Assembly (NCBI RefSeq): GCF_006714895.1
Contig: NZ_VFME01000001.1
Coordinates: 1,488,001 to 1,552,000 of the forward strand
Direction of reading: 5' to 3'
Source of the DNA: Gramella sp. Hel_I_59
GTDB taxonomy: Bacteria; Bacteroidota; Bacteroidia; Flavobacteriales; Flavobacteriaceae
Length of the DNA: 64,000 bases
Below are positions 38,098-64,000 of this stretch, in pieces. The notes beneath the pieces are model-generated. The model ran no database searches. It was not told the origin of the DNA and was given only the letters and a program-made list of their open reading frames with translations. The position numbers and the translations under genes are program-made. Every line of letters begins with the position of its first letter. The first letter of the stretch is position 1.

Positions 38098-38098
38098 G

Positions 38099-38993: not shown

Positions 38994-39794
38994 ATGAAAG
39001 ATTTAGACAAATGGAAAGCCAAGGTTGAGGCAGATGACTTCACTGATGATGAAAAAAAGGTTTTTGATGAAATGGGGCTGAAAGGTTCCTCAAGGCGAAC
39101 CTTTTTAAAGCAGGTCTCAGTGGCGAGTATGAGTCTCTGGGCAACATCATATTTTACAAATGACCTGTTTGCCAGCAATATGGAAGACCTTCCAGAAGAA
39201 GTACGGGTTTTATTAAATGAGGTAAAAGTGAATTTGCGCGTGAATGATATTAGCAAACCACTAAATATCGATTCCAGAATGAGTTTGCTGGATGCACTCA
39301 GGGAACGTCTTGCTCTTACCGGAACTAAAAAAGGTTGTGATCATGGCCAATGTGGGGCATGTACAGTGATGATCGATGGGAAAAGAAAATTATCCTGTTT
39401 AACTCTTGCAGCAACCTGCAACGATAAAGAGATCACCACGGTAGAAGGTCTTGCCAGCGATGGGAAACTTCATCCTATGCAGGAAGCTTTTGTAAAACAT
39501 GACGGCTACCAATGTGGATACTGTACTCCTGGACAGGTTTGTTCTTCTGTAGCATTACTCGAGGAAGCTAAAAATGGAGAAGCCAGCTATTTAACTGAAG
39601 ATCTGAAAACTATCAAAAAAGACCTGAAACTTTCTGAAGCAGAAATCAGAGAGCGCATGTCTGGAAATATTTGCCGTTGTGGTGCTTACAATAATATTGT
39701 ACAGGCCTTTAAGGAAGTTCATTCCGGAGATAGTGAAATGCCAACCTGGGAATTTGCTACCCAGGAACAAATGGAAAATGCAAAGAACGCTTAA
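38994..39794 (+). CDS. Tat-exported [2Fe-2S] subunit of an aldehyde oxidoreductase (PaoA/YagT-like)
   Basis: A 266-residue small subunit. A twin-arginine motif SRRTFLKQVS begins near residue 33, preceded by an unusually long charged N-terminus, so the complex should be exported folded to the periplasm. The plant-type cluster is bound by KGCDHGQCGACTVMI and a following Cys. The second cluster is bound by QCGYCTPGQVCSS and GNICRCGAYNN. A Lys/Glu-rich insertion separates the two Cys pairs of the second domain. It begins the three-subunit set PaoABC-like, 139 nt after the transporter gene, perhaps with its own promoter. Confidence 0.93.
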   Translation: MKDLDKWKAKVEADDFTDDEKKVFDEMGLKGSSRRTFLKQVSVASMSLWATSYFTNDLFASNMEDLPEEVRVLLNEVKVNLRVNDISKPLNIDSRMSLLDALRERLALTGTKKGCDHGQCGACTVMIDGKRKLSCLTLAATCNDKEITTVEGLASDGKLHPMQEAFVKHDGYQCGYCTPGQVCSSVALLEEAKNGEASYLTEDLKTIKKDLKLSEAEIRERMSGNICRCGAYNNIVQAFKEVHSGDSEMPTWEFATQEQMENAKNA

Positions 39795-39806
39795 TACCAA
39801 CCAGAT

Positions 39807-40793: not shown

Positions 40794-40814
40794 CCAATTT
40801 CAAAAAATTATAAG

Positions 40815-42986
40815 ATGAAGACAATGAACAAAACTGGAGTTGGTGCAGCTATAGACCGAGTAGAAGGACATTTGAAGGTTACCGGAAAAGCTACGTATGC
40901 TTCAGAATTTCCAATAGAGAATAAGGTTTACGCACAGGGTATCAATAGTACCATAGCGAAAGGAACTATTGTTTCTATAGATACTACGGAAGCAGAAAAT
41001 TCTGCCGGCGTACTGGCGGTAATCACTCATAAGAATGCTGAAAAGCTTAATGACTTCAAGAAAGATCGATATCAGATCGCTACAGATACAATTGCACCGG
41101 TACTTCAGAGTAATAAAGTGCACTATTATGGAGAATACGTAGGGGTTGTGGTTGCTGAAACTTTTGAGCAGGCTCAATATGCTGCAAGACTGGTTAAATT
41201 CGAATATAGTAAGGCAAGTGATCCTGCGATACATTTTGATAAACAACGGGATAATGCATTTTTTCCAAGTGAGGATTCAGATTATTCTCGTGGTGATATG
41301 GAAAAAGGACTTGCTGAGGCAGATGAGGTTGTTGAGCAGACTTATATCACTTCTATCGAACATCATCATCCCATGGAACTTCATGCGGTTATCGCCGAGT
41401 GGAATAATGGTAAGGTAACAGCGTATGCTAGTCAGCAAATGGTGGAAGATGCTACAATTGCTATCTCAGATACTTTCCAGATTCCGCAGAAGGATGTGAG
41501 AGTGATCGCAGCCTATGTTGGTGGAGGATTTGGTTCCAAACTTAACGTAGAACGACATGTAACCTTAGCGGTTATGGCGGCTAAAAAAGTGGGCAGACCT
41601 GTGCAGGTAACAGTGACCAGAACCCAGATGTTCACTAATACAGGTCTTAGACAGAAGAATGAGCAAACGATGAAGATTGGTGCTAAAAAGGATGGAACCA
41701 TGACAGCCTTATCTCATGATACCCTGTCGCATACTTCACCTAATCTTGTTTACCAGGAACCCTGCGGAATGGTTTCAAAAATGTTATATAACAGTCCGAA
41801 TGCAAAGGTGACTGAGCGGCTAATGCCCATGAACCTGCAAACACCTTTTGCCATGAGAGCTCCGGGAGAAGCAACCGGAAGTTTTGCACTGGAATCTGCG
41901 ATGGACGAAATGGCCTGGAAATTAAAAATGGACCCGTTAGAGTTCAGAATTAAAAACGATACTCAAACAGATCTTCATAAGAACCAACCTTTTTCCTCCC
42001 GATTGCTGGTAGAATGTTTACGCATTGGCGCTGAAAAATTTGGGTGGAAAGATCGTAAGGATCAACCTCGAACTAATGTAAAAGGAAACTGGCTTGTAGG
42101 TTATGGTGTTAGCGCAGCTTCCAGAAATTCGCCTTATCGCAAAACTCACGCAAAAGTACTTCTGGAACTTGTAGAAGATAAGGTAGAAGCAACTATACAA
42201 ATGGATGCGACCGATATTGGTACAGGAACTTATACAATCGTGGCTCAAACTGCTGCGGAATATCTTGGAATTCCTGTAGAACAGGTCAAGGTAGAGCTTG
42301 GAGATTCTAACTTCCCGGTAACTCCTGGATCTGGAGGATCGTGGGGTGCCGCATCTTACTGTAATGGAGCGAGAGCTGCCTGTGAGAATGCAGTCATGAA
42401 ACTAAAGGATAATAGAAGTATTCCTAAAGATGAGGAGGTTGCTTTAACTGAACTTTTGAAGCAGAACCAGATCACTAAATTTGAAATGACCGGGATGGCA
42501 GAGCCTTCCACGGAATTTGAAAAACATTCTGTATTCTCTTTTGGTGCCAACTTCGCTGAAGTGTGGGTAGATAAAGATACAGGAATGTGGAGGATCGAAA
42601 GAATGGTAAATGTTGGAGCTGCCGGAAAGATCTTAAATCCCAAAACTGCATACGGACAAATAATTGGTGGTCTCACCATGGGAGCAGGTATGGCTATCGC
42701 CGAAAAGACAGATGTGGAACCAAATTTCGGGAATTTTATAACTCGTTCTTTCGCAGATTATCATGTACCTGTCAACCTGGATATGGCGAACATTGATGTC
42801 ATTTTCCTGCCGGAGGAAGATAAGATCGCGAACAAAATGGGAATCAAAGGAATTGGGGAACTGGGAATTACGAGTGTCGCCGCTTCGTTATCAAATGCCA
42901 TTTTTAACGCTACTGGTAAGAGAATGCGAGAATTACCTATAACACCTGAGAAACTAATCGAAGCACCGCTTGAACCCGGTGTTTAG
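40815..42986 (+). CDS. Molybdenum-binding catalytic subunit of an aldehyde oxidoreductase (PaoC/YagR-like)
   Basis: A 723-residue large subunit. It starts with a fold shared with PaoC (RVEGHLKVTGKATYASEF), has AAYVGGGFGSKL for cofactor binding, MRAPGEATGSFALES and the active-site glutamate in GIKGIGELGITSVAAS. With the two preceding genes it forms an alpha-beta-gamma periplasmic enzyme likely to oxidise aldehydes to carboxylic acids, a detoxifying activity in E. coli. The substrate here is inferred from the family. It ends the island and is followed by a strong terminator. Confidence 0.94.
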   Translation: MKTMNKTGVGAAIDRVEGHLKVTGKATYASEFPIENKVYAQGINSTIAKGTIVSIDTTEAENSAGVLAVITHKNAEKLNDFKKDRYQIATDTIAPVLQSNKVHYYGEYVGVVVAETFEQAQYAARLVKFEYSKASDPAIHFDKQRDNAFFPSEDSDYSRGDMEKGLAEADEVVEQTYITSIEHHHPMELHAVIAEWNNGKVTAYASQQMVEDATIAISDTFQIPQKDVRVIAAYVGGGFGSKLNVERHVTLAVMAAKKVGRPVQVTVTRTQMFTNTGLRQKNEQTMKIGAKKDGTMTALSHDTLSHTSPNLVYQEPCGMVSKMLYNSPNAKVTERLMPMNLQTPFAMRAPGEATGSFALESAMDEMAWKLKMDPLEFRIKNDTQTDLHKNQPFSSRLLVECLRIGAEKFGWKDRKDQPRTNVKGNWLVGYGVSAASRNSPYRKTHAKVLLELVEDKVEATIQMDATDIGTGTYTIVAQTAAEYLGIPVEQVKVELGDSNFPVTPGSGGSWGAASYCNGARAACENAVMKLKDNRSIPKDEEVALTELLKQNQITKFEMTGMAEPSTEFEKHSVFSFGANFAEVWVDKDTGMWRIERMVNVGAAGKILNPKTAYGQIIGGLTMGAGMAIAEKTDVEPNFGNFITRSFADYHVPVNLDMANIDVIFLPEEDKIANKMGIKGIGELGITSVAASLSNAIFNATGKRMRELPITPEKLIEAPLEPGV

Positions 42987-43119: not shown

Positions 43120-43806
43120 GTGGATAAATTATATCAGAACATAAATATTTCGGTGAATTCAGAATTATTTCTGAAAGATCCTGAGTCCAGTGAGTTAGGG
43201 AAAAAAATTGTAGGGCAGGGAATCCTTCTCATTGATGATATAGGTTTTGAGAAGTTCACCTTTAAAAAGCTAGGTGTTCAGATAAAATCAAACGAAAGCT
43301 CTATCTATCGTTATTTTGAGAACAAACATAAGTTCCTGGTTTATATAACCAACTGGTTCTGGGGATGGAAAGAATTTCAGCTGACCATGTCCACCTATGG
43401 CATTTCAGACTCCAATGAAAAATTACTGAAAGCCATCGAAGTGATTACGCATCCTGTTGTTCAGGATTTTAGGTTTCAGCATATAAATGAGGTTGCCTTG
43501 AACCATATTATCATCAATGAATCTTCAAAATCTTATCTTACCAAAGAGGTGGAAACAGATAATAAAGAAGGTTATTTTTCCATTTACAAAAGACTGGTTA
43601 CCAGAATTGCGGAAATGATTTCTGAAGTATCTTCAGATTATGAATATTCTCTTAGCCTTTCCAGCATGGTTCTGGATGGCGCTTTACATCAGCATTTTCT
43701 AAAAGACCATATTCAGTCGATAACAGACTGTTCAGAAAAGAAAAGTGTATCCAATTATTTTAAAGACCTCGTGATCAATACCCTAAAAATTGAACTCAAT
43801 GGCTGA
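43120..43806 (+). CDS. TetR family regulator of the adjacent export operon
   Basis: A 228-residue regulator. The helix-turn-helix is GFEKFTFKKLGVQIKSNESSIYRYFENKHKF, interrupted only by usual variation; the remainder is helical and unlike any family I can name, as expected for a ligand domain. It begins with GTG at 43120, directly after an in-frame stop (43117-43119), which fixes the start. The stop overlaps the start of the ABC gene (8 nt), so it is in one operon with the three export genes and probably controls them through the palindrome at 43081-43097. Confidence 0.87.
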   Translation: MDKLYQNINISVNSELFLKDPESSELGKKIVGQGILLIDDIGFEKFTFKKLGVQIKSNESSIYRYFENKHKFLVYITNWFWGWKEFQLTMSTYGISDSNEKLLKAIEVITHPVVQDFRFQHINEVALNHIIINESSKSYLTKEVETDNKEGYFSIYKRLVTRIAEMISEVSSDYEYSLSLSSMVLDGALHQHFLKDHIQSITDCSEKKSVSNYFKDLVINTLKIELNG

Positions 43807-45463
43807 AGAAAAAATGACCGCCTGGCAGCGCTTCGTTGGCCTGCTAAAGCTTGATAAAAAAGATTTTCTGCAAATTCTTTATTATGCAATTTTCGCCGGA
43901 TTGGTAAACCTTTCGGTACCATTAGGAATCCAGGCTATTGTAAACCTTATTCAGGGTGCTCGTATTACGACTTCATGGATAATTCTGGTAATTTTAGTGA
44001 CTCTGGGGGTTGCTTTTGTAGGAGTGCTTCAGCTAATGCAGATCAGGATTCTTGAGAATATTCAGCAAAAAATATTTACCAGGGCATCTTTTGAATTTAC
44101 CTATAGATTTCCAAAGATCAAAATGTCTGAGCTTGAGAACTTTTATCCTCCTGAGCTTGCCAATAGATTCTTTGATGTAATCACCATTCAGAAGGGAATC
44201 GCCAAACTGGTTCTGGACTTTCCAGCCGCGATTTTACAGATCGTTTTTGGATTAATTTTGCTTTCGCTGTATCACCCTTTCTTTATTTTCTACGGAATAT
44301 TACTGGTACTTCTAATTTATCTGGTATTCAGATTCACCGCAAAAAGAGGTTTGAATACGAGTATCAAGGAATCCAAGATGAAGTATAAGATCGCTCACTG
44401 GATTCAGGAAGTAGCCAGAACTTTAATTAGTTTCAAAGTAGCTGGAAAAACCAAACATGCCATCCAGAAGAATGACGCACTTGTAACTAAGTATCTTGAA
44501 GAACGTGAGAGCCACTTCCAGGTGCTTAAGCTTCAGTTCATTCAAATGGTTGGTTTTAAAACTCTCGTGACTGCCGGTTTACTTTTAATAGGAGGTTTCC
44601 TCGTGCTTAATCAGCAAATGAATATTGGTCAGTTTGTAGCTGCAGAGATCATTATTTTATTGATCATTAGTTCTGTAGAGAAAATGATCATGGGACTGGA
44701 AAACTTTTACGATTTACTGACTTCCCTTGAAAAACTTGGAGAAGTAGTAGACAAGAAACTGGAAAGATCTGGAGGGGACACTTCTTTTTCTGAACATAAA
44801 GATCTGGAAATAGAACTTAAGAATATTGGTTTCAAAACTCCTGATGGACAGGAAGTTCTAAAAGATATTAATTTGACAATTAGGGCTGGTGAGAAGATAC
44901 TCCTGAAAGGTCCAAATGGTTCCGGGAAGTCTTTATTACTTAGGATTATCGCAGGATTGATAGAACCAACTCAGGGAAAGATATATGTGAATGGAATTTC
45001 GTTGAAGAATATAGATCTCAACTATTATCATGGTCTGCTTGGACAGTCGCTTACAGAGGAGTCATTGTTTGAAGGTACATTATTAGAGAACCTTACATTC
45101 GCTGATAATACTATTACCAATTCAGCAATTTTTTCGGTACTGGATAAAACCGGCTTAAAAGAATTCGTTCGTCAGCAACCCGATGGGCTGGAAACTTTGA
45201 TCTATCCAGAGGGAATGAAATTACCGCATACGGTCGCCAAGAAGATCATTCTGGCCAGGACGTTATTACGGAACCCAAGATTGTTAATTCTGAATGAACC
45301 TTTACATCAAATCGATTATGAAGAGGAGAAGCGTATTGTAGATCATTTAATGTCTGAAGATCAACAATGGTCTATTATAGTCGCTAGTGGAGATGAAGTA
45401 TGGCAGAATCGTTGTAATCGTCATATCATTCTAAGGGATGGTAAACTTGAATCTAATCTTTAA
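43799..45463 (+). CDS. Peptidase-less HlyB-like ABC protein with degenerate nucleotide-binding domain
   Basis: A 554-residue ABC membrane-ATPase fusion: five or six helices in the first 300 residues, then an NBD. Walker A is intact (KGPNGSGKSLLL) and the Q-loop region GLLGQSLTEESLFEGTLLENL is normal. In place of the LSGGQ signature there is KLPHTVAKKIILARTLL. Walker B reads RLLILNEPLHQID, with Asn where Asp is expected. The switch histidine is replaced in IVASGDEVW. ATP hydrolysis may thus be weak or absent. The ATG at 43799 is chosen over an upstream TTG. Adaptor and channel genes follow, so it likely belongs to a tripartite type-I-like exporter. Confidence 0.88.
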   Translation: MAEEKMTAWQRFVGLLKLDKKDFLQILYYAIFAGLVNLSVPLGIQAIVNLIQGARITTSWIILVILVTLGVAFVGVLQLMQIRILENIQQKIFTRASFEFTYRFPKIKMSELENFYPPELANRFFDVITIQKGIAKLVLDFPAAILQIVFGLILLSLYHPFFIFYGILLVLLIYLVFRFTAKRGLNTSIKESKMKYKIAHWIQEVARTLISFKVAGKTKHAIQKNDALVTKYLEERESHFQVLKLQFIQMVGFKTLVTAGLLLIGGFLVLNQQMNIGQFVAAEIIILLIISSVEKMIMGLENFYDLLTSLEKLGEVVDKKLERSGGDTSFSEHKDLEIELKNIGFKTPDGQEVLKDINLTIRAGEKILLKGPNGSGKSLLLRIIAGLIEPTQGKIYVNGISLKNIDLNYYHGLLGQSLTEESLFEGTLLENLTFADNTITNSAIFSVLDKTGLKEFVRQQPDGLETLIYPEGMKLPHTVAKKIILARTLLRNPRLLILNEPLHQIDYEEEKRIVDHLMSEDQQWSIIVASGDEVWQNRCNRHIILRDGKLESNL

Positions 45464-45468
45464 AGACT

Positions 45469-46821
45469 ATGCTTAACATAACTAGAAATCCATTGAATGA
45501 GCAGGTTGACCTAAGGCAATTCAAAGCCGGGAAAAAGGTTCTGCACACAAGACACTTTAAATACTTTAACAGGTTTCTCAAGTTCTCTGCGATCTTTGGA
45601 GTGATCGTACTTTTCCTTCCGTGGACCCAGACGATATCGGGAAATGGTTCTGTAACGACTTTAAGTCCGGAGCAAAGACCACAAACAATCCAATCAGTGA
45701 TTCCGGGTAAGATCGAAAGATGGTATGTAAATGAGGGAGATTATGTGGAAAAAGGAGATACGATCCTACATATTACCGAAGTCAAAAACGAATATTTTGA
45801 TCCATCACTTGTAGAAAGAACTGGAGACCAGGTTGCCTCCAAGTCTAATTCCCTGAAATCCTATGATCAAAAGATCTCTGCTCTAGGCACGCAGTTACAG
45901 GCCCTGGCACAGGAACGAGAACTTAAGCTGGAACAGGCAAGAAACAAATTGGAACAGGCAAAACTGAAAACAAAAAGCGATAGCATTGATCTGCAGGCGG
46001 CAAAAACAAATTTGAGCATTGCTGAAACTCAGTTTAATCGTACTAAAACTCTTCAGGAAGAGGGTTTGAAAGCGATGACAGATGTAGAAGAAAAGCGACT
46101 TAAACTGCAGGAAACTCAGGCGAAACTGATTTCGCAAGAGAATAAATTGATGGCGAGTAGAAACGATATTATTAATGCCAGAATCGAAATTAATCGTACT
46201 GCTGCAGAATATAGCGACAAGATCTCCAAAACTCAGAGTGATCGATCTTCTGCAGAGTCAGGGAAATTCGATGCCCAGGCTGAAGTGAGTAAACTGGAGA
46301 ATGCCTATACTAATTATGAAATGAGGCAGGATCTTTATTACGTCAAAGCTCCGCAGAACGGTTATATTAATAAGGCAATCAAAGCCGGGATTGGCGAAAC
46401 TTTTAAAGAAGGAGAGCAGCTGGTGAATATCATGCCTTCAGATTATGACCTTGCCGTGGAAACATTTGTGAAACCAATTGATCTTCCATTATTACATAAA
46501 GGCGAGGAGGTTAGAGTACAATTTGATGGCTGGCCTGCGATCGTTTTTAGTGGATGGCCGAATGTGTCTTACGGTACTTACGGAGCAAAAGTGGTCGCTA
46601 TAGAGAATTTTATAAGTCCGAATGGAAAGTACAGAGTATTACTGGCACCAGATGAAAACGATCACGATTGGCCAGATGCTTTAAGAGTGGGCTCTGGAGC
46701 GAATACCCTGGCGCTACTGGAAGACGTGCCTATCTGGTATGAATTATGGCGACATTTAAATGGTTTCCCTCCAAATTATTATACTCCGGAAGGTCAAACT
46801 CAAACCGACAAGAAGCAATGA
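45469..46821 (+). CDS. HlyD-type periplasmic adaptor protein
   Basis: A 450-residue membrane-fusion protein. One N-terminal transmembrane helix (about residues 43-60, FSAIFGVIVLFLPWTQT) is followed by the first half of a lipoyl domain (PGKIERWYVNEGDYVEKGDTIL), a long coiled coil from about 120 to 275 rich in Glu, Lys and Gln, the second lipoyl half (YVKAPQNGYINKAIKAGIGE) and a beta-barrel domain. It would connect the ABC protein to the TolC-like channel. It is 5 nt after the ABC gene and overlaps the channel gene by four bases. Confidence 0.92.
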   Translation: MLNITRNPLNEQVDLRQFKAGKKVLHTRHFKYFNRFLKFSAIFGVIVLFLPWTQTISGNGSVTTLSPEQRPQTIQSVIPGKIERWYVNEGDYVEKGDTILHITEVKNEYFDPSLVERTGDQVASKSNSLKSYDQKISALGTQLQALAQERELKLEQARNKLEQAKLKTKSDSIDLQAAKTNLSIAETQFNRTKTLQEEGLKAMTDVEEKRLKLQETQAKLISQENKLMASRNDIINARIEINRTAAEYSDKISKTQSDRSSAESGKFDAQAEVSKLENAYTNYEMRQDLYYVKAPQNGYINKAIKAGIGETFKEGEQLVNIMPSDYDLAVETFVKPIDLPLLHKGEEVRVQFDGWPAIVFSGWPNVSYGTYGAKVVAIENFISPNGKYRVLLAPDENDHDWPDALRVGSGANTLALLEDVPIWYELWRHLNGFPPNYYTPEGQTQTDKKQ

Positions 46822-48206
46822 GTTTAAAAAAGACATTTCTTATTGCCTTACTGCTTCTGCCTATGTTACAATATGGCCAGACTCAGGATAGTATTGTTCT
46901 GAATTTTGAAGAATACCTGCAGATGGTTAAAACCTTTCATCCGGTAGTTAGACAAGCCAGGCTGAAAACCGATCTTGGTGATGCGGAATTGCTGAAGGCT
47001 AGAGGTGGATTTGACCCGAAGATCGAGGCCAATTACGATCGAAAGGACTTTAAGGATACCCGTTATTTCGATCTATTCAATGCGGCTTTCAAGATCCCAA
47101 CCTGGTATGGAGTTGAACTGAAGGCAAAATTTGAACAGAACGAAGGTTTTTATTTGAATCCGCAAAACACGGTGCCAGATGATGGTTTATTTGCAGCAGG
47201 AATATCTGTGCCTATAGGACAGGGTTTGTTCATCAATGAGCGAATGGCTGCATTGAAACAAGCAAAAGCCTACCAGCAGCAGTCTATTGCAGATCAACAA
47301 TTGGCGGTGAACAAGATTCTGTATGAAGCATCTGTAGCTTATTTTGACTGGATTAGTGCGTATCGGGAGCTTAAGCTTTACAATAACTTTATTGAGAATG
47401 CGCAGTTTCGATATGACGGAATCCTGTCCAGCTTTGAAGTAGGGGATAAGCCGGCTATTGATACCCTGGAAGCCGATATTCAAATACAGGACCGTAAGCT
47501 GAGTCTGGAGCAGGCACGATTGAAGTTTTTCAAAGCCTCTCAGCAATTAGGAACTTATTTATGGGCTGAAAATAACACACCTTTGGTCATTAGGGAGCGT
47601 GTGTATCCCGAGCATGCGTTGTTCGAGAATAGCACGATTCCTGCCGAGTTCTTAAGCGATACTGAAATTACCACGCACCCAAAAATTCGGTCATTGGAGT
47701 ATAAAGTAGAAATTCTGGAATTTGACAGAAGATTGAAGGCGAATAAATTACTTCCAAAGCTGGATCTGGAATATAATTTTTTAAGTGGTGATCCCGATAT
47801 TTTAAGAAGTTTTGTCAATGAGAATTATAAGGTGGGTGTAAACTTCAGTATTCCTTTATTTCTTCGGAAAGAACGCGGAGATCTACAAAAATCGAAGATC
47901 AAACTTCAGGATGCAGAATTAGAATTATATAGTGAACAGCTCAATCTTCAGAATAAAATAAGAGCGCTGAAAGAGCAATTTCTTTCCTACCAGGAGCAGG
48001 TATTGATGATCAATCAACTGGTAGAAAATTACGAAATCATGCTTAATGCTGAAGAGCGAAAGCTGCAACTTGGTGAAAGTTCTGTTTTTCTCGTCAATAC
48101 CCGGGAAAAAAGTCTAATAAGCGCACGATTGAAGCAGATTAGCGTACAGGAGAAACTCTGGAACACTCGCGCTGAACTTACGCAGGTTCTGGCAATACTG
48201 GAATAA
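46818..48206 (+). CDS. TolC-like outer-membrane channel protein
   Basis: A 462-residue protein. The ATG at 46818, overlapping the adaptor stop codon (ATGA), gives a signal peptide MSLKKTFLIALLLLPMLQYGQ; the longer upstream frame is not needed. The body has the alternating helical and strand pattern of the outer membrane efflux protein family, with repeated Glu/Leu/Gln-rich helical stretches, for example DTLEADIQIQDRKLSLEQAR and the matching second-half RKLQLGESSVFLVNTREKSL. It is the last gene of the TetR-ABC-HlyD-TolC set. Confidence 0.9.
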   Translation: MSLKKTFLIALLLLPMLQYGQTQDSIVLNFEEYLQMVKTFHPVVRQARLKTDLGDAELLKARGGFDPKIEANYDRKDFKDTRYFDLFNAAFKIPTWYGVELKAKFEQNEGFYLNPQNTVPDDGLFAAGISVPIGQGLFINERMAALKQAKAYQQQSIADQQLAVNKILYEASVAYFDWISAYRELKLYNNFIENAQFRYDGILSSFEVGDKPAIDTLEADIQIQDRKLSLEQARLKFFKASQQLGTYLWAENNTPLVIRERVYPEHALFENSTIPAEFLSDTEITTHPKIRSLEYKVEILEFDRRLKANKLLPKLDLEYNFLSGDPDILRSFVNENYKVGVNFSIPLFLRKERGDLQKSKIKLQDAELELYSEQLNLQNKIRALKEQFLSYQEQVLMINQLVENYEIMLNAEERKLQLGESSVFLVNTREKSLISARLKQISVQEKLWNTRAELTQVLAILE

Positions 48207-55899: not shown

Positions 55900-56643
55900 T
55901 CATTTCAGTTTACTAATTTTCCAATGCCTCAAGCTGATTGGAGTATTCCGTAGGCAATCTTCAAATTCTTTGTTTCCAGAGAATGAGGCCTTCTCCAGCA
56001 TTTTATATTCACAACTTAATTCAAAAGAATCCTGTTCAAAGATCCAGGGATGTATAAATATTTCGTCATGTTCATTTCTTGAGATCACATACTTCCTGTT
56101 TTGAATACTTGTATTGATCTCTAATTCGCGATCTTTTGCAGGTACTCCGTTCTGGCAAAGAATAAGTGAACATCTATCTGCAAATACCATGATCTGGTAA
56201 AGTTCATGTACCTCACGATCATTTAGTGAATTTACTTTCATGAGATCCTTTATTTCCACACTGATCTCGTTCATAAAGCGATGGATCATTTTGCTTTCTT
56301 CGGAAAGATCCTGGTATAAGAACTCCAGGTGTTTCATTACTAAAATCGTTACCCAACTTGACTTGAGCCTGGCTTGTTCGAGTAACCTGCGACTTCTTTT
56401 AATGATCTCGTTGATATTTCTGTCCTCATCGAGAAAATCCTGCGGAGTTCCAATTTTAGTGAGGTAATCCTTTTCTCTGAAGTTTAATTGCCGGTCATCA
56501 TGTTCTACGATCGCAGTTAAAGTAGCGACCCAGTTTCTACCTTTAATATCTTGCTTCAGTTCGTCTGCAATTTTACCCGCAAGCAATCCATGTGCAGAAT
56601 GTGAGAAGATCTCCCAGCCTTCAGCGTTAGAATTAACGATCAT
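55900..56643 (-). CDS. DUF3891 family protein
   Basis: A 247-residue protein. The N-terminus (AEGWEIFSHSAHGLLAGKIAD) and IVEHDDRQLNF, with its His-Asp-Asp triad, match DUF3891 proteins, which have a helical fold with conserved His and Asp residues that may bind metal, as in HD-like hydrolases. Enzymatic activity is unproven. Its start overlaps the stop of the upstream AraC regulator gene (ATGA, 56640-56643), so the two are translationally coupled and probably functionally linked. Confidence 0.87.
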   Translation of the reverse strand: MIVNSNAEGWEIFSHSAHGLLAGKIADELKQDIKGRNWVATLTAIVEHDDRQLNFREKDYLTKIGTPQDFLDEDRNINEIIKRSRRLLEQARLKSSWVTILVMKHLEFLYQDLSEESKMIHRFMNEISVEIKDLMKVNSLNDREVHELYQIMVFADRCSLILCQNGVPAKDRELEINTSIQNRKYVISRNEHDEIFIHPWIFEQDSFELSCEYKMLEKASFSGNKEFEDCLRNTPISLRHWKISKLK

Positions 56644-57656
56644 ACTTTATCTTTTTTTCTTACGGCAGTTGGAGTCATTCCATACTTTTCTTTAAAGATC
56701 TTGGAAAAATGACTTCGGCTGTTTAGTCCGACTTCGTATACGATCTCACTAATGGTCTTATTGGTTTTCAGTAATAAAAGCATCGCAGTTTCCATCCGCT
56801 TGCGCTGAATGTATTCATGAACTGTGCAATTAAAAAGTATTTGAAACCCTTCCTGTAATTTAGTTTCGGTAATCTCAACCGATTGTGCCAGGGAAATAAT
56901 ATTGCCAAGCTCTGCGATGTTTTTATCAATTTGAAAGATCACCTGTTTTACCTTTTCAAGATCTCTTTGCCTGAGTACATTTTGATGGTCCTCTGGTTTA
57001 CTATCATCCCGGTAGAGCATAAGCATGTATGTAAGAAGCTCCAGTGCTTTTGCACCATGATAGCTGACCCTTTCCAGTCCGGGCGTCGTAAAATCTCTTA
57101 GCTCCTGGATGAGATGAGACATTTTAAGACTGTATTGCGTATGGTGATAAAGAGTACGAATGGCATTCGTATCTGCAAAGATCCTGTGATAGATGTCGTC
57201 CATCTCTTCCAGTGGAAATGTGAGCTGATCCACAAATTTCTTCCTGTCCACATCCAGCATAACTACTGAAATAGTCATCCCGCCTGGAAACATGATCTTA
57301 TTCCCGCTGCCACTGTGCGCGCCAATGATCACCGATTGATCCTTTTCAATATGATGAACAATCTCCTCGTTATGAAAACTATGATCCAGTCGTCCTTCAA
57401 GCACGTATATAAATTTAAAGGGATGCACCAGATCTCCATGAAAATTGAGGCAGGTGTTTTCCTTTAACTGGGTTTCAAATCTGAAAATTCCAACGCCACT
57501 CGGGAAGTTGATACCTGAAATTATTCCATCTCCATGCTCGTTTGAAAACTCTATATAGGCTTCTCCATAGTTCTCTGAATAGTCAGTATCGAAAGCTGAT
57601 GCTAATTTTTTTAATATAGATTTTGCTGAAGTTTCAGCGATCTTGACGGTCTGCAT
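56640..57656 (-). CDS. AraC family transcriptional regulator (paralogue 2)
   Basis: A 338-residue protein parallel to the regulator at 19718-20737. The N-terminal domain has HGDGIISGINFPSGVGIFRF and HPFKFIYVLEGRLDHSF; the C-terminal AraC domain has LAQSVEITETKLQEGFQ and ISEIVYEVGLNSRSHFSKIF. The conserved N-terminal motif suggests a common type of small ligand. It is coupled to DUF3891 downstream. The glycosyltransferase operon begins 165 nt away in the divergent direction, so it could regulate that operon; no palindrome was seen in the gap. Confidence 0.9.
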   Translation of the reverse strand: MQTVKIAETSAKSILKKLASAFDTDYSENYGEAYIEFSNEHGDGIISGINFPSGVGIFRFETQLKENTCLNFHGDLVHPFKFIYVLEGRLDHSFHNEEIVHHIEKDQSVIIGAHSGSGNKIMFPGGMTISVVMLDVDRKKFVDQLTFPLEEMDDIYHRIFADTNAIRTLYHHTQYSLKMSHLIQELRDFTTPGLERVSYHGAKALELLTYMLMLYRDDSKPEDHQNVLRQRDLEKVKQVIFQIDKNIAELGNIISLAQSVEITETKLQEGFQILFNCTVHEYIQRKRMETAMLLLLKTNKTISEIVYEVGLNSRSHFSKIFKEKYGMTPTAVRKKDKV

Positions 57657-57821
57657 TTTTGGTGGTCGATTTTTGTAATACTAAAATATTAACAAGTCTC
57701 TATTCCTGCAGGAATCTGAAGTTAAACCTTTCCTAATTAGAAGAATATCGTTAAGCTCAAATGTAAAACCGCACACATTCACGCGCTACTTCCACCAAAT
57801 TCGTAAAAAGAAAAGGAAATT

Positions 57822-59300
57822 TTGAAAGTATCTCAAAACATTTTAATGCTTAGTTACATCATGATCTTTGTGATGGTACTATCCTATTTTGTAGTTGGTT
57901 TTGAATCAACTTTGATGTTATTTCTGAGCTTTCTAAGTCTTCTAATGTTTGTAGAATCTGTGGTAAGGATTAGATTCTGCCGTCGCCAGAATAAAATCAG
58001 TTCAAAATCTTCGAGGCTTCGGAGTTCACCAAGAGTTTCAATACATATTGCCACTTGCAATGAACCTTCAGATTTGGTAATCAAAACAGTTCGAGCGGCT
58101 CTTCAGTTAAACTATGAGAATTACGAGATCGTAGTGCTAGATAATAATACTTCAGATATAAAACTATGGAAACCGGTTCGGGAATTTTGTAACAGATATC
58201 CTGAAAAAGTGATCTTCAAACATTTCGACAGGCTTGTTGGATATAAGGCAGGCGCTTTAAACCAGTGTTTAAAAATAATGCATCCCGATACAGAATATAT
58301 ATTCACTGTAGACGCCGATTATATTTTGAGACCAGATAGTCTTTCTAAGGCTGTAGCGGCGATTGATGGTACAGATGCGGCAGTGGTTCAGTTTCCTCAG
58401 CATTATACACTTCATCATGAACGCCATGGTTTATTCAACGAATTGGAACACTTTTTTAGCGGGTATGCCCAAGCTGGAAATCGTAGTCTTAGCACTTTAC
58501 CAACCGGCACCTTGAGTATGGTTAGAGTAGAATCACTACTTTCTGTATCAGGTTGGCCTACAGAATCGCTTACAGAAGATGCACACCTGGGAATTAAATT
58601 CCTGTCTGAAAAGTTTACTACTTATTTTTCAAATGAAATTTTAGGGGTGGGAGTTATGCCTGGAAGTATTGCAGATCTACGCAAACAAAGACATCGTTGG
58701 GTATATGGAAATACTCAGTGTTTTTTAAAATTTTGCAGTGTTCGTGTGAAAGACCAGTGTAAGCTATCAGTTTTCATGCAATTATCTGCCTGGGTGAATT
58801 TATTATCATTGCCTATCTTATTCAGTTTAGTTTATATCCTGGCAGAAATATTTACGAACTGGCAGATTTCAGACTGGATTCCTATGCTTATCCTGAGTCA
58901 GTTTAGTATCTACGTGTTGGGTAAATTATTCTTATTCCTGTCTAATTCTAAAAACACCTTTCAGTATAATTTTAAAGCATTTCTAATCCATATTGCACTG
59001 AGTTTTGAGATGGCTTTTTCACCAATTATGGCTTTGCTAGGAATGCCAGCCAGCTTTGTAACAACCAGCAAGTTTGCAAAGGTTTCCAGTCTCAAACATA
59101 TTCCGCTCAGGATTCCGGCACTATTGCTTATCATGACCATTTTATTATTTGCCGTGGGAAAAACCGGAATTGCCATGTATAGCCTTCAGGTTAGCTTGCT
59201 TTTTCTTCTATCAGGAATTTACCTCTATTCTGAATTTACACCTAAAACCATTAACCAACTAAAAATACTTCCAGATGAAAATAGCCATTCTCGCGCATAA
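57822..59300 (+). CDS. Membrane-bound glycosyltransferase family 2 (processive, cellulose-synthase-like)
   Basis: A 492-residue protein. Two N-terminal helices, a GT2 domain and about five C-terminal helices give the layout of processive inverting transferases. Catalytic residues are visible: the DxD in FTVDADYIL, the base in SLTEDAHLGIKF and the QxxRW motif in RKQRHRWVYG. Such enzymes make polysaccharides while passing them through the membrane. The start is TTG at 57822 (after AGGAAATT); ATG at 57846 is the alternative. It overlaps the next gene by 26 nt and heads a seven-gene operon. Confidence 0.9.
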   Translation: MKVSQNILMLSYIMIFVMVLSYFVVGFESTLMLFLSFLSLLMFVESVVRIRFCRRQNKISSKSSRLRSSPRVSIHIATCNEPSDLVIKTVRAALQLNYENYEIVVLDNNTSDIKLWKPVREFCNRYPEKVIFKHFDRLVGYKAGALNQCLKIMHPDTEYIFTVDADYILRPDSLSKAVAAIDGTDAAVVQFPQHYTLHHERHGLFNELEHFFSGYAQAGNRSLSTLPTGTLSMVRVESLLSVSGWPTESLTEDAHLGIKFLSEKFTTYFSNEILGVGVMPGSIADLRKQRHRWVYGNTQCFLKFCSVRVKDQCKLSVFMQLSAWVNLLSLPILFSLVYILAEIFTNWQISDWIPMLILSQFSIYVLGKLFLFLSNSKNTFQYNFKAFLIHIALSFEMAFSPIMALLGMPASFVTTSKFAKVSSLKHIPLRIPALLLIMTILLFAVGKTGIAMYSLQVSLLFLLSGIYLYSEFTPKTINQLKILPDENSHSRA

Positions 59301-60336
59301 TAAATTTCCAATTGCCGAGCCATATGCCGGTGGCTTGGAAATGATCACTCACCAGTTGGTGCAAACACTTATGGAACGAGGACACGAAGTTCATTTGTAT
59401 GCGCTATCTGGTTCAGACCCTCAATTTGATGTGACATCTCTAGATATTGTTCAGGTTGCAAATAATGAGTTGACCGAATCCAAAATTGATGAACTTATGT
59501 ATAGAAATGTACTGGAGATCATTGAATCCATAGATTACGATGTGGTGCACAACCATAGTATGCATGAATTACCAATTATCTGGGGAGCTAGTAGCAGGCA
59601 CCAGTTTCTGACTTCTTTTCATACACCGGTCTTTGATAGCATTCACTCTGGTCTGGAAAATATCTCCGGAAGAGATCATAGTGAAAAATTTAGCGTGGTA
59701 AGTAAAAAATTAGGCGAGACTTATGCTCACTTACTTCCGGAAAAAAATGTAGTCTACAACGGAATAGACACCACTGCGTGGACTTTTTCTAAATCTACTG
59801 AAGTAGATAAACTTTGTTGGATTGGTCGTATTTGCAAGGAAAAAGCACCACATCTGGCTATTGATTACGCGTTAAAAGCCAATAAGAAGATTGTTCTGGC
59901 CGGACCACTAAGCAATTCTGAATATTTCAAAGAATATGTGGAGCCGAGATTAGAGCTGGAAGGAGTCGAATATATTGGACACCTAAAGCATACAGGATTG
60001 AACAAATTGATTGGTTCTTCTGAAGCAACCTTATTTACCAGTGTGTGGGATGAACCTTACGGACTCGTAATTGCTGAATCACTCGCTTGTGGAACGCCAG
60101 TTGTTTCCTTTAATGTAGGAGCTGCCCCGGAAATCCTGACAAAAGAAACCGGTTTTCTGGTCGAACTTGAGGATGAAGCAGGATTTGTAAATGCAATCAA
60201 ATCCTGTACGAAGCTTGACAGAAATGATTGCCGTGAGAGAGCTATAGATTTTTGTGATAAAGGGCAGATGGTAGATGCCTATGAAAATCTGTATGAGAAA
60301 ATGATATCCGAAAACCTGAAAAAAGTTGCAGTATGA
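59275..60336 (+). CDS. Glycosyltransferase family 4
   Basis: A 353-residue GT-B-fold enzyme. The N-terminus is MKIAILAHNKFPIAEPYAGGLEMITHQLVQTL, cut here only by family variation; the C-terminal EX7E motif is EPYGLVIAESLACGTPVVSFNVG. The retaining mechanism and use of a nucleotide sugar are expected from the family. It has no membrane segments and is probably cytosolic or peripheral. It overlaps the upstream transferase gene by 26 nt and the downstream one by 4 nt, so equimolar synthesis is likely. The sugar is unknown. Confidence 0.9.
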   Translation: MKIAILAHNKFPIAEPYAGGLEMITHQLVQTLMERGHEVHLYALSGSDPQFDVTSLDIVQVANNELTESKIDELMYRNVLEIIESIDYDVVHNHSMHELPIIWGASSRHQFLTSFHTPVFDSIHSGLENISGRDHSEKFSVVSKKLGETYAHLLPEKNVVYNGIDTTAWTFSKSTEVDKLCWIGRICKEKAPHLAIDYALKANKKIVLAGPLSNSEYFKEYVEPRLELEGVEYIGHLKHTGLNKLIGSSEATLFTSVWDEPYGLVIAESLACGTPVVSFNVGAAPEILTKETGFLVELEDEAGFVNAIKSCTKLDRNDCRERAIDFCDKGQMVDAYENLYEKMISENLKKVAV

Positions 60337-61391
60337 TTGGGTATTACGCACATCAGCATGGTAGTGGTCATCTCAATTTTGCCCGCTTGTTCGCAAAGGT
60401 TTTTGAAGATGAAATTTGCACTTTTAGTAGTCTAAAGAAGCCTGAGGCTTTGAAAGGGCAATTCGTGCAATTGCCAGATGAAAATCCAGATGGCACGGCA
60501 TTTACTGATAATCAGATTCCAGTACCAGATTATCTGCATTACAGTCCGGTGGGACAAAGATCTATTCAGTTGCGCAGCGCTCAGATCCTAAGGGAAGTTG
60601 TGAAAAGGAACATCAAATTAATGATCGTGGATGTAAGTGTAGAAATTGCAGCTTTGATGAGGGCGTCTTCAATACCTTATGCTTACGTCAAACTTCCAGG
60701 TCACAGGGATGATGCGGCACATGTACAGGCTTTTCAAGGTGCTGTTTTTGTCCTTGCTTATTACCCTGAAGAATTTGAAAGTGGGCAAACACCTGATTGG
60801 CTTCGGAAGAAAACTATTTATCTAGGCTTTATTACAGATCGTAAGATCGGGCAACCAATAGCTTCTACTTCAGAAGAAGTTAATAACATACTCGTGATCA
60901 GTGGAGGAGGAGGTAATGATAGGCTTATTAAAGCGATCCATATTCTTCCGGAACGATTTGCTTCCGCAGAGATCAAAATTGTCGGGATGCCGGAGGAAAA
61001 TTTCAACAACTTCAGGATCAGGAATTGTGGTTATGTTCAAAACTTTCAGAATTTAATTGAGCAGGCTGATCTTGTGGTGGCGAATTGCGGACTCAACTCC
61101 GTAACCGAAATTTTGCAGGCTAAGAAAGCTTTTGTGGCGATCCCGGAAGAAAGACCTTATGAAGAACAGGAGACTACGGCATTCCATCTTTACCAGCATG
61201 ATCTGGCGATTGATCCAAATTCTATAGTTGAACTGGAAGATTTAGAAATCTTAAAGCACAGAACATGGGATGTGGAAAATGACCTTAGTGCCATTAGTAA
61301 ATTGAAAAACCATTTAGATGGGAACTATGATCGGTTACCATTAATTCCAGAACTATTTGCAAACCAACAACAAGAAGAACATGCAGAATAA
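60333..61391 (+). CDS. MurG/GT28-like glycosyltransferase
   Basis: A 352-residue GT-B-type protein. The N-terminal glycine-rich turn YYAHQHGSGHLNFARLFAK is like that of MurG-type and macrolide-type transferases. The C-terminal donor site is partly recognisable as VISGGGGNDRLI, ADLVVANCGLNSVTEIL and AIPEERPYEEQETTA, where an Asn-Cys-Gly replaces the usual sugar-binding loop of MurG. It is distinct from MurG (no signal for lipid I handling near the N-terminus). It overlaps both neighbours (4 and 11 nt). Confidence 0.8.
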   Translation: MIGYYAHQHGSGHLNFARLFAKVFEDEICTFSSLKKPEALKGQFVQLPDENPDGTAFTDNQIPVPDYLHYSPVGQRSIQLRSAQILREVVKRNIKLMIVDVSVEIAALMRASSIPYAYVKLPGHRDDAAHVQAFQGAVFVLAYYPEEFESGQTPDWLRKKTIYLGFITDRKIGQPIASTSEEVNNILVISGGGGNDRLIKAIHILPERFASAEIKIVGMPEENFNNFRIRNCGYVQNFQNLIEQADLVVANCGLNSVTEILQAKKAFVAIPEERPYEEQETTAFHLYQHDLAIDPNSIVELEDLEILKHRTWDVENDLSAISKLKNHLDGNYDRLPLIPELFANQQQEEHAE

Positions 61392-62250
61392 GATAAAATT
61401 TTCAGTGATCACGATTGTGAAGGGGCGGGAAGCACATTTATATAATTTACTACAGGGTGTCAAAAGAAGTAGTCTGCAGCCAGATGAAATTAGAATTGTG
61501 GCGATTGATGATTTGCCAGATTTATCCACTTTTCAGGATTTACCTATAAAGATTTCGGAAATTAGTTCCAAAGGCCCAAATCTTCCGATAGCTGAAGCAA
61601 GGAATATAGGAGCTCAAAATGCCAAATTTGATCACTTGATATTTCTCGATGTTGATTGTATTCCTCATCCAGATTTTTTTGATGATATGATCACGCAAGG
61701 TCTTGCTCATAAAACATTGATTATGGGTAATCCACATTATCTTGAGAGTAAAATTCCGCAGGATTTTGAGTTGAACGATTTGAAACAACTTAGCGCTGCG
61801 CATCCTGCCAGGCCAGAGATCAAAGAACTAGCCGAGGCTAGTGATTATATGCTTTTCTGGAGCCTGGCATTTTATATTCCGAAGCAGCTTTTTAAATTAC
61901 TGGAAGGTTTTGATGCGCAATTTACTGGCTACGGTGCAGAAGATACAGATATGGCTATGAAGATTAGTAAGCTTAAAAGTATTTATCCCTTGCTGTTGTC
62001 ACCGGCAAAAGTCTATCACCAGCAACATCCGGTGCACTCGCCACCAGTTCATCAGGTAGAAGCGATTGTTATAAATGCACGAATATTTTATGAGAAATGG
62101 GAACGATCGGTGATGGAGAACTGGCTAGAAGAATTTACTAAGCTTGGTTTAATCCAATGGCAGGCAAATGGAAGTACTATTGAAATACTGAAGCAGCCAG
62201 ATAATGATTTAATTGAGCAGTCTTACCAGCCAGAGGCTGCCTATATGTAG
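61381..62250 (+). CDS. Glycosyltransferase family 2 (soluble)
   Basis: A 289-residue GT-A-fold enzyme. The N-terminal strand FSVITIVKGREAHLYNLLQGV and the metal-binding DxD in LIFLDVDCIPHPDFF are typical; the acceptor-side motif GYGAEDTDMAMKI contains the likely base (Glu-Asp). The ATG at 61381 is preferred over the upstream ATG at 61357. It has no membrane helices. As the fourth transferase in the row it overlaps the previous gene by 11 nt and is followed 13 nt later by the YqcI/YcgG gene. Confidence 0.9.
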   Translation: MQNKIKFSVITIVKGREAHLYNLLQGVKRSSLQPDEIRIVAIDDLPDLSTFQDLPIKISEISSKGPNLPIAEARNIGAQNAKFDHLIFLDVDCIPHPDFFDDMITQGLAHKTLIMGNPHYLESKIPQDFELNDLKQLSAAHPARPEIKELAEASDYMLFWSLAFYIPKQLFKLLEGFDAQFTGYGAEDTDMAMKISKLKSIYPLLLSPAKVYHQQHPVHSPPVHQVEAIVINARIFYEKWERSVMENWLEEFTKLGLIQWQANGSTIEILKQPDNDLIEQSYQPEAAYM

Positions 62251-62263
62251 AAATAAAAATTGA

Positions 62264-62905
62264 ATGATGATGAAAACGAAAGAGAAATTTGAACATTGGA
62301 TCCTTGACGAAGACCATCCTTGTATCATGGCGCAAACAGTATTTAGCCAGGAACATGTAAAAACTAAAAAATACGGGCAGTTGGGTGAACCTTCACAAAC
62401 CGAAGCTTTGCTCAAAGACCTTAAGAATTATATCGCTGAGTATGATTTTGAAACAAATGACTTTAAATCTTTTATCGCTGTTTTTCCTGATTCCAATATC
62501 GCTACGGAAGATGAATTTGAGCAATTGTTATGGAAGCAATTAGAAGAAATTGAGAAAATCGATACGAAAGATTGGGATCCTTCCGTAAGCAGAGATCCAG
62601 AGGATGATAATTTCAGTTTCAGTATTGCCGGAAGATCTTTCTATATTGTAGGTATGCATCCCAATAGTTCGAGACAGGCTCGTAGAAGTCCGTATCCTTC
62701 GATTGCCTTTAACCTGCATGTTCAATTTGAGAAATTGAGGGACATGGGAGCTTATGAAAAGGTGCGTGATAAAATTAGAGCCAGAGATAAAGAATTACAG
62801 GGAAATATGAATCCAATGTTAGAAGACTTTGGATCATCAAGTGAAGCAAAACAATATAGTGGTAAAGCTACCGAAAATGATTGGGTTTGTCCATTTCACC
62901 AGTAA
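62264..62905 (+). CDS. YqcI/YcgG (GntA-like) family protein
   Basis: A 213-residue cytosolic protein. The family is recognisable from HPCIMAQTVFSQEHV near the N-terminus, FSIAGRSFYIVGMHPNSSRQARRSPYP in the centre and the C-terminal CPFH ending (WVCPFHQ). Studied members are heme-dependent enzymes: GntA N-hydroxylates a guanidine compound in guanitoxin biosynthesis, and RohS-type enzymes act in azomycin synthesis. The Cys and His of CPFH and the His of GMHPN are candidate heme or metal ligands. Its place inside a glycosyltransferase operon is unusual and suggests an N-oxidised, glycosylated product, but this is inference. Confidence 0.82.
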   Translation: MMMKTKEKFEHWILDEDHPCIMAQTVFSQEHVKTKKYGQLGEPSQTEALLKDLKNYIAEYDFETNDFKSFIAVFPDSNIATEDEFEQLLWKQLEEIEKIDTKDWDPSVSRDPEDDNFSFSIAGRSFYIVGMHPNSSRQARRSPYPSIAFNLHVQFEKLRDMGAYEKVRDKIRARDKELQGNMNPMLEDFGSSSEAKQYSGKATENDWVCPFHQ

Positions 62906-62919
62906 AAAAATCAGGAGCA

Positions 62920-63498
62920 ATGAGAAATTTTTTTAAGGAAAACAGAAAGGCAATTTATGGCGGAATTGTAGCTACCGTATTCACAGGCATAGGAATATTT
63001 CTGTTAGGTCAGCTTTCCGGTTATGAAGCTAAAGAACTTATTGAATCCTCTCATAGTGGTCTAAATATGCTTTGTAATACGATCACTCTTGCCTCTGCCA
63101 CGATACTAACCTTGCTATTAACGCTACTGGGAATAAGTACAGGAACTGAATCGAAACTTAAAAGCGAGCATTACCATCAGGTTTTGGATATCGCAAAACT
63201 TGATACCGTGCTAATAGTTAGTGCAATTGTAATGTTTCAACTATTTAATATTCAGATCACAGAAGCAGATAATGTACCTCTAAACTGGTATTCGTCCATT
63301 TACTGGATAAGCTTATTCTGTACTTCAGTTTTAAGCGGAATGATGATCACGGTTGTACTGATGCTTTATACGACTATTACAGCGATCATTCACATAGTTG
63401 GTCTTAAAAACGACCATAGATTGATTACCAGAGAAGAAGAGGAAGAGAAAAAAGAAGAAATAAAGAACGAAAAAGAGAAGATGTCGAACGAAAAATGA
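62920..63498 (+). CDS. Four-helix membrane protein of unknown function
   Basis: A 192-residue protein. The ATG at 62920 follows an AGGAG sequence and begins MRNFFKENRKAIYGGIV; a frame from 62881 overlaps the previous gene. There are four hydrophobic segments (about residues 11-30, 45-66, 92-110 and 126-150), and the C-terminus is a highly charged Lys/Glu tail. No family was recognised. It lies 14 nt after the YqcI/YcgG gene and is probably part of the same transcript. Confidence 0.8.
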   Translation: MRNFFKENRKAIYGGIVATVFTGIGIFLLGQLSGYEAKELIESSHSGLNMLCNTITLASATILTLLLTLLGISTGTESKLKSEHYHQVLDIAKLDTVLIVSAIVMFQLFNIQITEADNVPLNWYSSIYWISLFCTSVLSGMMITVVLMLYTTITAIIHIVGLKNDHRLITREEEEEKKEEIKNEKEKMSNEK

Positions 63499-63502
63499 TA
63501 TT

Positions 63503-63760
63503 ATGAATACAACAGCCAAACACCTGCAAACAATCAACTCAATCCTGTCCAATAAACAACTGAGCAAGAAAGAATTTAAATTTCTAAATAGAATTGAAGC
63601 AGACCATGTAAAAAGTATATCAATCACCACAGATGGCGGTTTTGATCCTGAATCGGGAGAATTTCATAAAGAAGACCGCCCTTTGAATTACAAGATCCGA
63701 CTCAAGTACACAGATGCGGGAAATCTTCGATTCAAATGTTTACATGCAGAGAAAGCATAA
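63503..63760 (+). CDS. Small hypothetical protein, last gene of the glycosyltransferase operon
   Basis: An 85-residue protein with no recognised domain. Only 4 nt separate it from the preceding membrane protein gene, and a strong terminator overlaps its end. The composition is balanced and basic, without signal peptide; the second half (TDGGFDPESGEFHKEDRPLN and following) is rich in Asp, Gly and Glu. Conservation would be needed to confirm coding; the close spacing and terminator favour it. Confidence 0.6.
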   Translation: MNTTAKHLQTINSILSNKQLSKKEFKFLNRIEADHVKSISITTDGGFDPESGEFHKEDRPLNYKIRLKYTDAGNLRFKCLHAEKA

Positions 63761-63794
63761 AAAAAGCAGATCAATTATTGATCTGCTTTTTTTA
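63759..63794. terminator. Strong bidirectional terminator closing the glycosyltransferase operon
   Basis: AAAAAGCAGATCAA and TTGATCTGCTTTTT form a stem of 14 bp (63761-63774 with 63778-63791) around a TTA loop, with long A and T runs at both sides. The minus-strand gene on the right also ends nearby, so it serves both. Confidence 0.92.
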
Positions 63795-63809
63795 TAAAGA
63801 TTTTACAAT

Positions 63810-64000
63810 CTATAGCTTAATCCTGTAAATGCTGAATTTCATATCTGAAATATCTCCTCTCACTTCATTGATCCTGGAATTCGTATAATATAAATATCCA
63901 TCATAAAGACTAAAAGTATCTGCCCAGCGTATTTTTTCACCCTGTGCAAGGACTTCCTGCTCTCCTAATTTCGTATTATATCTCATGATCGCATTATTTT
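63810..64000 (-). CDS. C-terminal fragment of a major royal jelly/yellow-like protein, cut by window edge
   Basis: The reverse strand is open from the window edge to a TAG at 63810-63812, giving about 63 residues. The reading RWADTFSLYDGYLYYTNSRI, followed by ISDMKFSIYRIKL at the end, resembles the C-terminus of the MRJP/yellow family, which in bacteria are secreted beta-propeller proteins of uncertain function. The N-terminal part lies outside the window, so the family call is tentative. Confidence 0.55.
   Translation of the reverse strand, partial: NNAIMRYNTKLGEQEVLAQGEKIRWADTFSLYDGYLYYTNSRINEVRGDISDMKFSIYRIKL

Follow-up and report, generated by a model that had tools for sequence, protein, structure and literature searches.

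The characterised enzymes of the YqcI/YcgG family depend on heme to N-oxygenate guanidino groups (PMC12866846, PMC11177257, PMC8976061). They come from natural-product pathways, six of them in bacteria by the count of the AglA paper (PMC12866846). The conserved N-terminal cysteine of the family, noted in PMC2922099, is the heme ligand in AglA and ChmN (PMC12866846, PMC11177257). DcsA of the D-cycloserine pathway is paired with a hydroxyarginase, i.e. a hydrolase of guanidino chemistry (PMC8976061). The DUF1989 family includes a zinc domain of trimethylamine N-oxide demethylase (TDM; PMC12560246) as well as carboxyguanidine deiminase (PMC11271267); in PMC8319176 a DUF1989 gene appears as an entry in a table. 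Among the matches listed in the open-access literature there was no paper naming DUF1989 together with YqcI and YcgG. Here we analyse a seven-gene operon containing a YqcI/YcgG gene, located in a 64,000-nucleotide stretch of the genome of Gramella sp. Hel_I_59 (positions 1488001-1552000 of a 3.44-Mb genome in a single contig). The whole of this stretch is termed the window, and coordinates are numbered from its first nucleotide.

We prefer to read the operon as a regulated envelope-glycan cassette that is co-expressed with an inducible second YqcI enzyme, the latter feeding a guanidino-N-oxidation pathway of YqcI and DUF1989. We give this about even credence. The component features are:

56640-57656, minus strand: AraC-type regulator gene, divergent from g1 (PF12833, 75 bits)
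57721-57755, plus strand: conserved spacer element GTTAAACCTTTCCTAATTAGAAGAATATCGTTAAG, putative operator/promoter
57822-59300, plus strand: g1, membrane GT2 glycosyltransferase of the processive (cellulose/PgaC/NodC-like) type (PF00535, PF13641)
59275-60336, plus strand: g2, GT4 glycosyltransferase (PF00534, PF13439)
60333-61391, plus strand: g3, GT28/MurG-like glycosyltransferase (PF04101, the GT28 C-terminal domain)
61381-62250, plus strand: g4, soluble GT2 glycosyltransferase with a GT7C motif and an ATG start (PF10111, PF02709)
62264-62905, plus strand: g5, GntA-type YqcI/YcgG protein, predicted heme-thiolate N-oxygenase (PF08892, NF041366)
62920-63498, plus strand: g6, membrane protein with four predicted transmembrane segments
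63503-63760, plus strand: g7, 85-amino acid protein, family unassigned
63756-63796, no strand assigned: terminator-like stem-loop, a 19-pair stem with A/T tracts on both sides

By open reading frame (ORF) calls g1 to g7 are arranged head to tail on the plus strand (57822-63760), ending at the terminator-like stem. Genes g1 and g2 overlap by 26 nt, g2 and g3 by 4 nt and g3 and g4 by 11 nt, and the gaps that follow g4 are 13 (g4-g5), 14 (g5-g6) and 4 nt (g6-g7). The ORF calls and Pfam matches thus bear out the run proposed in a first-pass annotation, i.e. the order, the four transferase types, the overlaps of 4-26 nt and the gaps of less than 15 nt. That annotation took the unit to be the seven genes. 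These are real, but the AraC gene and the conserved spacer element are further members of the unit.

The g5 protein is a genuine member of the YqcI/YcgG family, as had been claimed for it. It matches PF08892 with 212.5 bits (cut-off 27) and the GntA equivalog NF041366 with 303 bits (cut-off 145), and its Cys20 is invariant in 43/43 aligned GntA-type proteins. The closest named relative found is from an uncultured Christiangramia, with 89% identity. The AlphaFold2 model (pLDDT 84) has an AglA-like predicted fold. The best match in the PDB is AglA (9ub3), the heme-thiolate guanidine N-hydroxylase of argolaphos, with a TM-score of 0.76 and a Foldseek E-value of 8e-10, and all 5 Foldseek matches at E≤0.001 are AglA. 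By its position C20 would be the counterpart of AglA Cys44; the cysteine lies outside the stretch covered by the sequence alignment. In our reading of a partial alignment, AglA R166 would fall on the invariant R140 of g5, F182 on F155, Q177 on N150, R179 on H152 and F152 on Y127. From the sequence and the model we infer that g5 binds heme and acts as an N-oxygenase. It differs from AglA in that identity over the fold is 18-20%, and the operon and the scanned neighbours of g5 show no recognised phosphonate genes or reductase. A second cysteine, C209, lying in a CPF motif near the C-terminus, is also invariant in 43/43 aligned GntA-type proteins, and is extra with respect to AglA.

Our sample of the genus (Christiangramia type) comprised 24 genomes; the codes G, L and H below denote genomes, loci and plasmid loci. 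The same seven genes are present in the same order in six of these (G000, G220, G210, G212, G201 and G203), so that the order sought in relatives was indeed found, and its recurrence exceeds chance. Between the four closest genomes the seven genes have pairwise ratios of non-synonymous to synonymous substitution (dN/dS) of 0.04-0.19, and the AraC regulator has ratios of 0.02-0.07, 8 of the 51 values not being computable due to saturation of dS. Even the small g7 is conserved (dN/dS 0.06-0.12). We found g3 in 11 genomes of the Flavobacteriaceae, i.e. 8/24 in the genus together with G074, G687 and G691. The same gene run holds YqcI in nine of the 11, DUF1989 in three and at least one of the two in 10. 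The pattern that would have refuted the first-pass annotation, with the YqcI and membrane genes occurring apart from the transferases in every relative, was therefore not seen. The eleventh genome (G691) has AraC and the full g1-g4 cassette with no YqcI in the genome, while of the seven genes G200 keeps just the transferases and g5.

Three arrangements join the transferase cassette to YqcI or DUF1989. In G074 and G687 the cluster reads YetF, a small membrane protein, g6, AraC, g1-g4, g5, FMN_bind_2 and DUF1989, with one small gene inverted. In G204 the cassette comprises g1-g4, an ion-channel gene and DUF1989. Homologues of g6 also occur near other YqcI/YetF loci: they are at most 5 kb from YqcI in L124, L130, L132 and L134, and belong to the same cluster in G074 and G687. 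In a tree of YqcI the genus operon copies group with two copies from loci lacking transferases (support 85/87, below the starred level); G074 falls outside the operon group, and many forks are unresolved.

An AraC homologue adjoins all 11 of the Flavobacteriaceae transferase loci found, and also both of the loci (in G205 and G215) where AraC, YqcI, g6 and g7 occur without transferases. In G074 and G687, of another genus, the homologue shares the strand of the operon. The AraC protein is probably a dedicated regulator of the operon. The element GTTAAACCTTTCCTAATTAGAAGAATATCGTTAAG at 57721-57755 is probably an operator or promoter. It is present in 9/13 AraC loci, including both that lack transferases. 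A matrix constructed from seven of these nine sites recovers the nine loci and nothing more in 64 sequences scanned; this recovery is partly by construction, so that the informative part is the absence from the other sequences. When as many as 3 mismatches are allowed the element occurs a single time in its own genome, and a control with the reversed pattern gave 0. The common regulator and element suggest that the operon is regulated as a unit.

A further YqcI gene is found elsewhere in the genome in a locus with DUF1989 and FMN_bind_2, which we term the core locus. YqcI is present in 24/24 genus genomes, and in 23/199 family genomes sampled one per genus (that in G145 is weak). We examined 43 flavobacterial copies of YqcI outside the AraC loci, and 41 of these have a DUF1989 gene no more than 5 kb away on the same strand, i.e. 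at 22/22 genus core loci and 19/20 loci of other genera. The exception among the latter is the second copy of G111, and the other exception, making the 43rd locus, is the core locus of G204 (L087), where YqcI was missed by the ORF caller. L142 (G145, 29 bits), a partial match in G013:C18 and the 4.9-kb contig of G106 were left out of this count.

The pairing extends to other phyla. Twenty-eight plasmid records match YqcI, and 17 were examined (H1-H16 and H18). DUF1989 lies directly downstream of YqcI in 13 of the 16 top-ranked loci H1-H16, a count made without a matched control for chance adjacency. The 13 pairs are found in Chryseobacterium, Hymenobacter, Deinococcus, Comamonadaceae, Sphingomonadaceae and Skermanella; in L186 and L199 the DUF1989 gene is unannotated and was found by tblastn only, the L186 match being in two pieces. 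DUF1989 is absent at the plasmid YqcI of two Streptomyces and one Rahnella, and there is none at H18 (Priestia, 28% identity). Most of the annotated YqcI genes of H1-H16 are named 'guanitoxin biosynthesis GntA' by NCBI, yet their neighbourhoods do not support that name.

The DUF1989 partner, which is encoded outside the window, matches PF09347 with 198.5 bits and is single-copy in 24/24 genus genomes. Residues C92, C110 and C174 are invariant in 45/45 distinct aligned proteins. In the alignment they fall on cysteines of TDM that, allowing for a 22-residue tag offset, we equate with the zinc ligands C263, C279 and C343 (PMC12560246). The partner is in the same Pfam family as carboxyguanidine deiminase, and has the three conserved cysteines; in the present genomes, however, the neighbour of DUF1989 is YqcI.

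Two genomes amount to natural experiments, in that a step of one locus seems to have been assumed by the other. The genome of G212 has no YqcI besides that of the operon, and its core locus retains YetF, FMN_bind_2 and DUF1989. A 156-bp gap in that core locus (L174:5864-6019) has two pieces resembling the core YqcI DNA of G000 (84% over 45 bp and 81% over 37 bp), and no YqcI is detected there at the protein level (best tblastn E-value 0.67). We read the gap sequence as the decayed remnant of a YqcI gene, and the operon YqcI appears to have replaced the core one. This is most simply explained if both copies catalyse the same reaction. In G204 the sole DUF1989 is behind the transferases, while YqcI and FMN_bind_2 remain at the core without it. 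Given this apparent takeover of steps, the pairing of YqcI with DUF1989 is directly testable with two purified proteins.

In the reading that we prefer the operon would be under AraC control and comprise two separable parts, g1-g4 and g5 with g6 and g7. The transferases would build a short envelope glycan or glycolipid, with g1 probably elongating the product and passing it through the membrane. The g5 protein, with g6 and g7, would be an inducible second GntA-type heme-thiolate N-oxygenase that does not act on the glycan and instead hydroxylates a small guanidino compound; the DUF1989 zinc enzyme, single-copy and encoded at the core locus, would then act on the product (with FMN_bind_2). The regulator would respond to one condition, probably envelope or osmotic stress, by switching on both parts together. 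With DcsA and hydroxyarginase as the model, YqcI and DUF1989 are most simply read together as an N-hydroxylation that is followed by hydrolysis or deimination. The hydrolase of D-cycloserine synthesis is arginase-like and is not known to be related to DUF1989; here the hydrolase would be DUF1989, and the genes do not form a cycloserine cluster.

A number of observations weigh against this reading. The genus loci share ancestry and so are not independent, while those of G074, G687 and G204 differ in structure. The spacer element was undetected at four of the 13 AraC loci (G204, G691, G074 and G687; G204 shows just a weak likeness in the alignment), and was not detected at any core locus scanned. 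A promoter common to the operon and the core locus was considered and set aside: the element is at no core locus and in no arrangement of the other genus, and is single in the genome, so that no common regulon of operon and core is shown. The operon and core copies of YqcI differ at nine positions, including W153, which we place beside the pocket; the substrate of the operon copies may therefore differ from that of the core. FMN_bind_2 lies outside the operon, and no reductase was recognised within it. The putative remnant in G212 was compared with one short region, without a control. A guanidine riboswitch was sought by an Rfam scan of six loci, which gave two tRNAs only, so there is no riboswitch support for guanidine. 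The role in stress is drawn solely from neighbouring genes (YetF, LigD parts, SDR, ion channel and TerC). Lastly, the repeated union of transferases with YqcI or DUF1989 could also mean that they form one pathway.

In that alternative YqcI and DUF1989 would N-oxidise or trim a nitrogen group on a glycan or glycolipid made by the four transferases. We consider such a joint product unlikely, and prefer the co-regulation of two parts. It would account for the three arrangements that place transferases with YqcI and/or DUF1989, for the single gene run in G074 and G687 that carries transferases, YqcI, FMN_bind_2 and DUF1989, and for two Comamonas plasmids in which YqcI and DUF1989 are followed by a glycosyltransferase gene and glf. 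However, the parts are separable both ways. In 14/24 genus genomes there is one YqcI, adjoining DUF1989, and no g3 (two of these genomes are 67% and 73% complete), and 21 of 22 other YqcI-bearing genera lack a strong g3 match in the sampled genome. The AraC-YqcI-g6-g7 loci of G205 and G215 lack transferases, and G212 has the operon YqcI alone. Conversely the full cassette of G691 and partial transferase cassettes in other families (G391, G298, G351 and G442) occur without any YqcI, the partial ones lacking DUF1989 as well. The occurrence of YqcI without transferases in most relatives, and of transferases without YqcI, makes an N-oxidised glycan unlikely. It had been the interpretation of the first-pass annotation, and we have downgraded it: the compact run, the YqcI membership and the recurrence stand, but the idea that the enzyme N-oxidises the transferase product is not supported, given that the usual neighbour of YqcI is DUF1989 and that YqcI and the transferases are each found apart.

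It is quite improbable that g5-g7 are passengers, brought behind the transferases by a chance rearrangement with no common regulation or function. The parts do also occur separately, as such a rearrangement would allow. Yet the gaps are of 4-14 nt, the genes are under strong purifying selection and have an AraC regulator and element in common, and 10 of the 11 loci are linked, with a different arrangement in another genus.

The operation of a guanitoxin or related natural-product pathway, as in the automatic name, is highly improbable: g5 scores well above the cut-off of the GntA equivalog, its best NCBIfam match, and NCBI gives this name to many of the 120 relatives listed, but DUF1989 is what recurs beside it in several phyla, YqcI is present in every genus genome searched, no peptide- or polyketide-synthetase-like protein and no gnt gene was recognised in scans of 30 other proteins of the window (no search of the whole genome for each gnt gene was made), and the name is probably an over-call.

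The unit of YqcI and DUF1989 is itself the most interesting part. The two genes are frequently paired in Bacteroidota, Deinococcota and Pseudomonadota, which suggests a common pathway concealed by the automatic annotation 'guanitoxin biosynthesis'. We suggest, tentatively and with considerable doubt, that the two enzymes make up a pathway that is widespread, has gone unrecognised and belongs to the ordinary, not the secondary, metabolism of bacteria. This would N-hydroxylate and cleave a guanidino compound to release a stress signal or protectant resembling hydroxyurea, hydroxylamine or nitric oxide, and in some flavobacteria would be wired by AraC to an envelope-glycan cassette.

Turning to the transferases, g1 starts with TTG (an alternative ATG is at 57846) and has DAD, TED and QRHRW motifs together with predicted transmembrane segments. 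TED and QxxRW are kept in all 11 of the g1 proteins listed, its own included. These motifs and membrane segments resemble the processive GT2 enzymes PgaC, CesA and NodC. The g1 protein differs in falling far under the NCBIfam equivalog cut-offs (78.8 against 422 bits for PgaC, 74.1 against 699 for CesA and 36.4 against 550 for NodC), and three soluble transferases come after it. It is possible, judging by these motifs, that g1 itself exports its product. The operon had been described as lacking O-antigen and capsule export genes. Pfam scans of 24 further window proteins (not every ORF) recognised none, but the processive-synthase motifs of g1 leave an absence of export uncertain.

The PF04101 match of g3 is weak (25.8 bits, cut-off 22). 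Among 5.8 billion proteins 78 homologues were found at E≤1e-10, the named ones mostly from Flavobacteriaceae and Cytophagales; this search reaches only relatives that have short exact words in common. A search across the phylum gave g3 matches at E≤0.001 in 185 of the 395 genomes. Among the matches listed nearly all are to the C-terminal part alone with E-values of 1e-10 or weaker, and are most probably MurG itself; besides its own genome only G391, G442, G298 and G351 fall below 1e-15. Weak matches in G158 and G186 of the family sample (E-values of about 1e-3 to 1e-4) were set aside as likely MurG. The neighbours of the transferase-only loci gave no indication of the identity of the glycan. 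Near the cassette of G691, the genome without YqcI, a PIG-L de-N-acetylase is joined to a NodS-like methyltransferase (L173:15374-16711).

No Pfam family matches g6 or g7 above its own cut-off, and g7 has no NCBIfam match either. The predicted structure of g6 (pLDDT 73, moderate) gave no PDB match at E≤0.001.

The first-pass annotation closed the operon with one strong terminator. There is a 19-pair stem at 63756-63796, but terminator-like sites as a class are not enriched (7 found against 6.1 expected in shuffled sequences). Because the class is not commoner than in shuffles, the strength of this site rests on its stem and position. It could serve both strands, with a convergent gene downstream. 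That gene, directly past the stem, matches PF03022 (Major royal jelly protein) at 63810-63998 of the window, continuing in L070:11810-12853, and has a homologue at the same place in four genomes.

In some genus loci LigD genes lie between YqcI and DUF1989. DNA ligase D is split into separate genes in Christiangramia core loci (L086:6502-9031, L144, L145, L147, L149 and L152), mostly within the run of YqcI, FMN_bind_2 and DUF1989 and outside it in L152. On the Chryseobacterium plasmid L183 ligD adjoins the YqcI-DUF1989 pair. In the two Comamonas plasmids (L185:5941-11062 and L192:4941-10189) the genes after gntA and DUF1989 are a large one for a glycosyltransferase and glf, for UDP-galactopyranose mutase; here too a YqcI-DUF1989 unit adjoins genes for glycans. 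Elsewhere in the window an ABC/HlyD/OEP export set is found at 43790-48206, about 10 kb from the operon, and a molybdenum enzyme cluster at 27787-42986 contains molybdopterin-enzyme subunits, XdhC, ThiF, cofactor-synthesis genes and MoeA.

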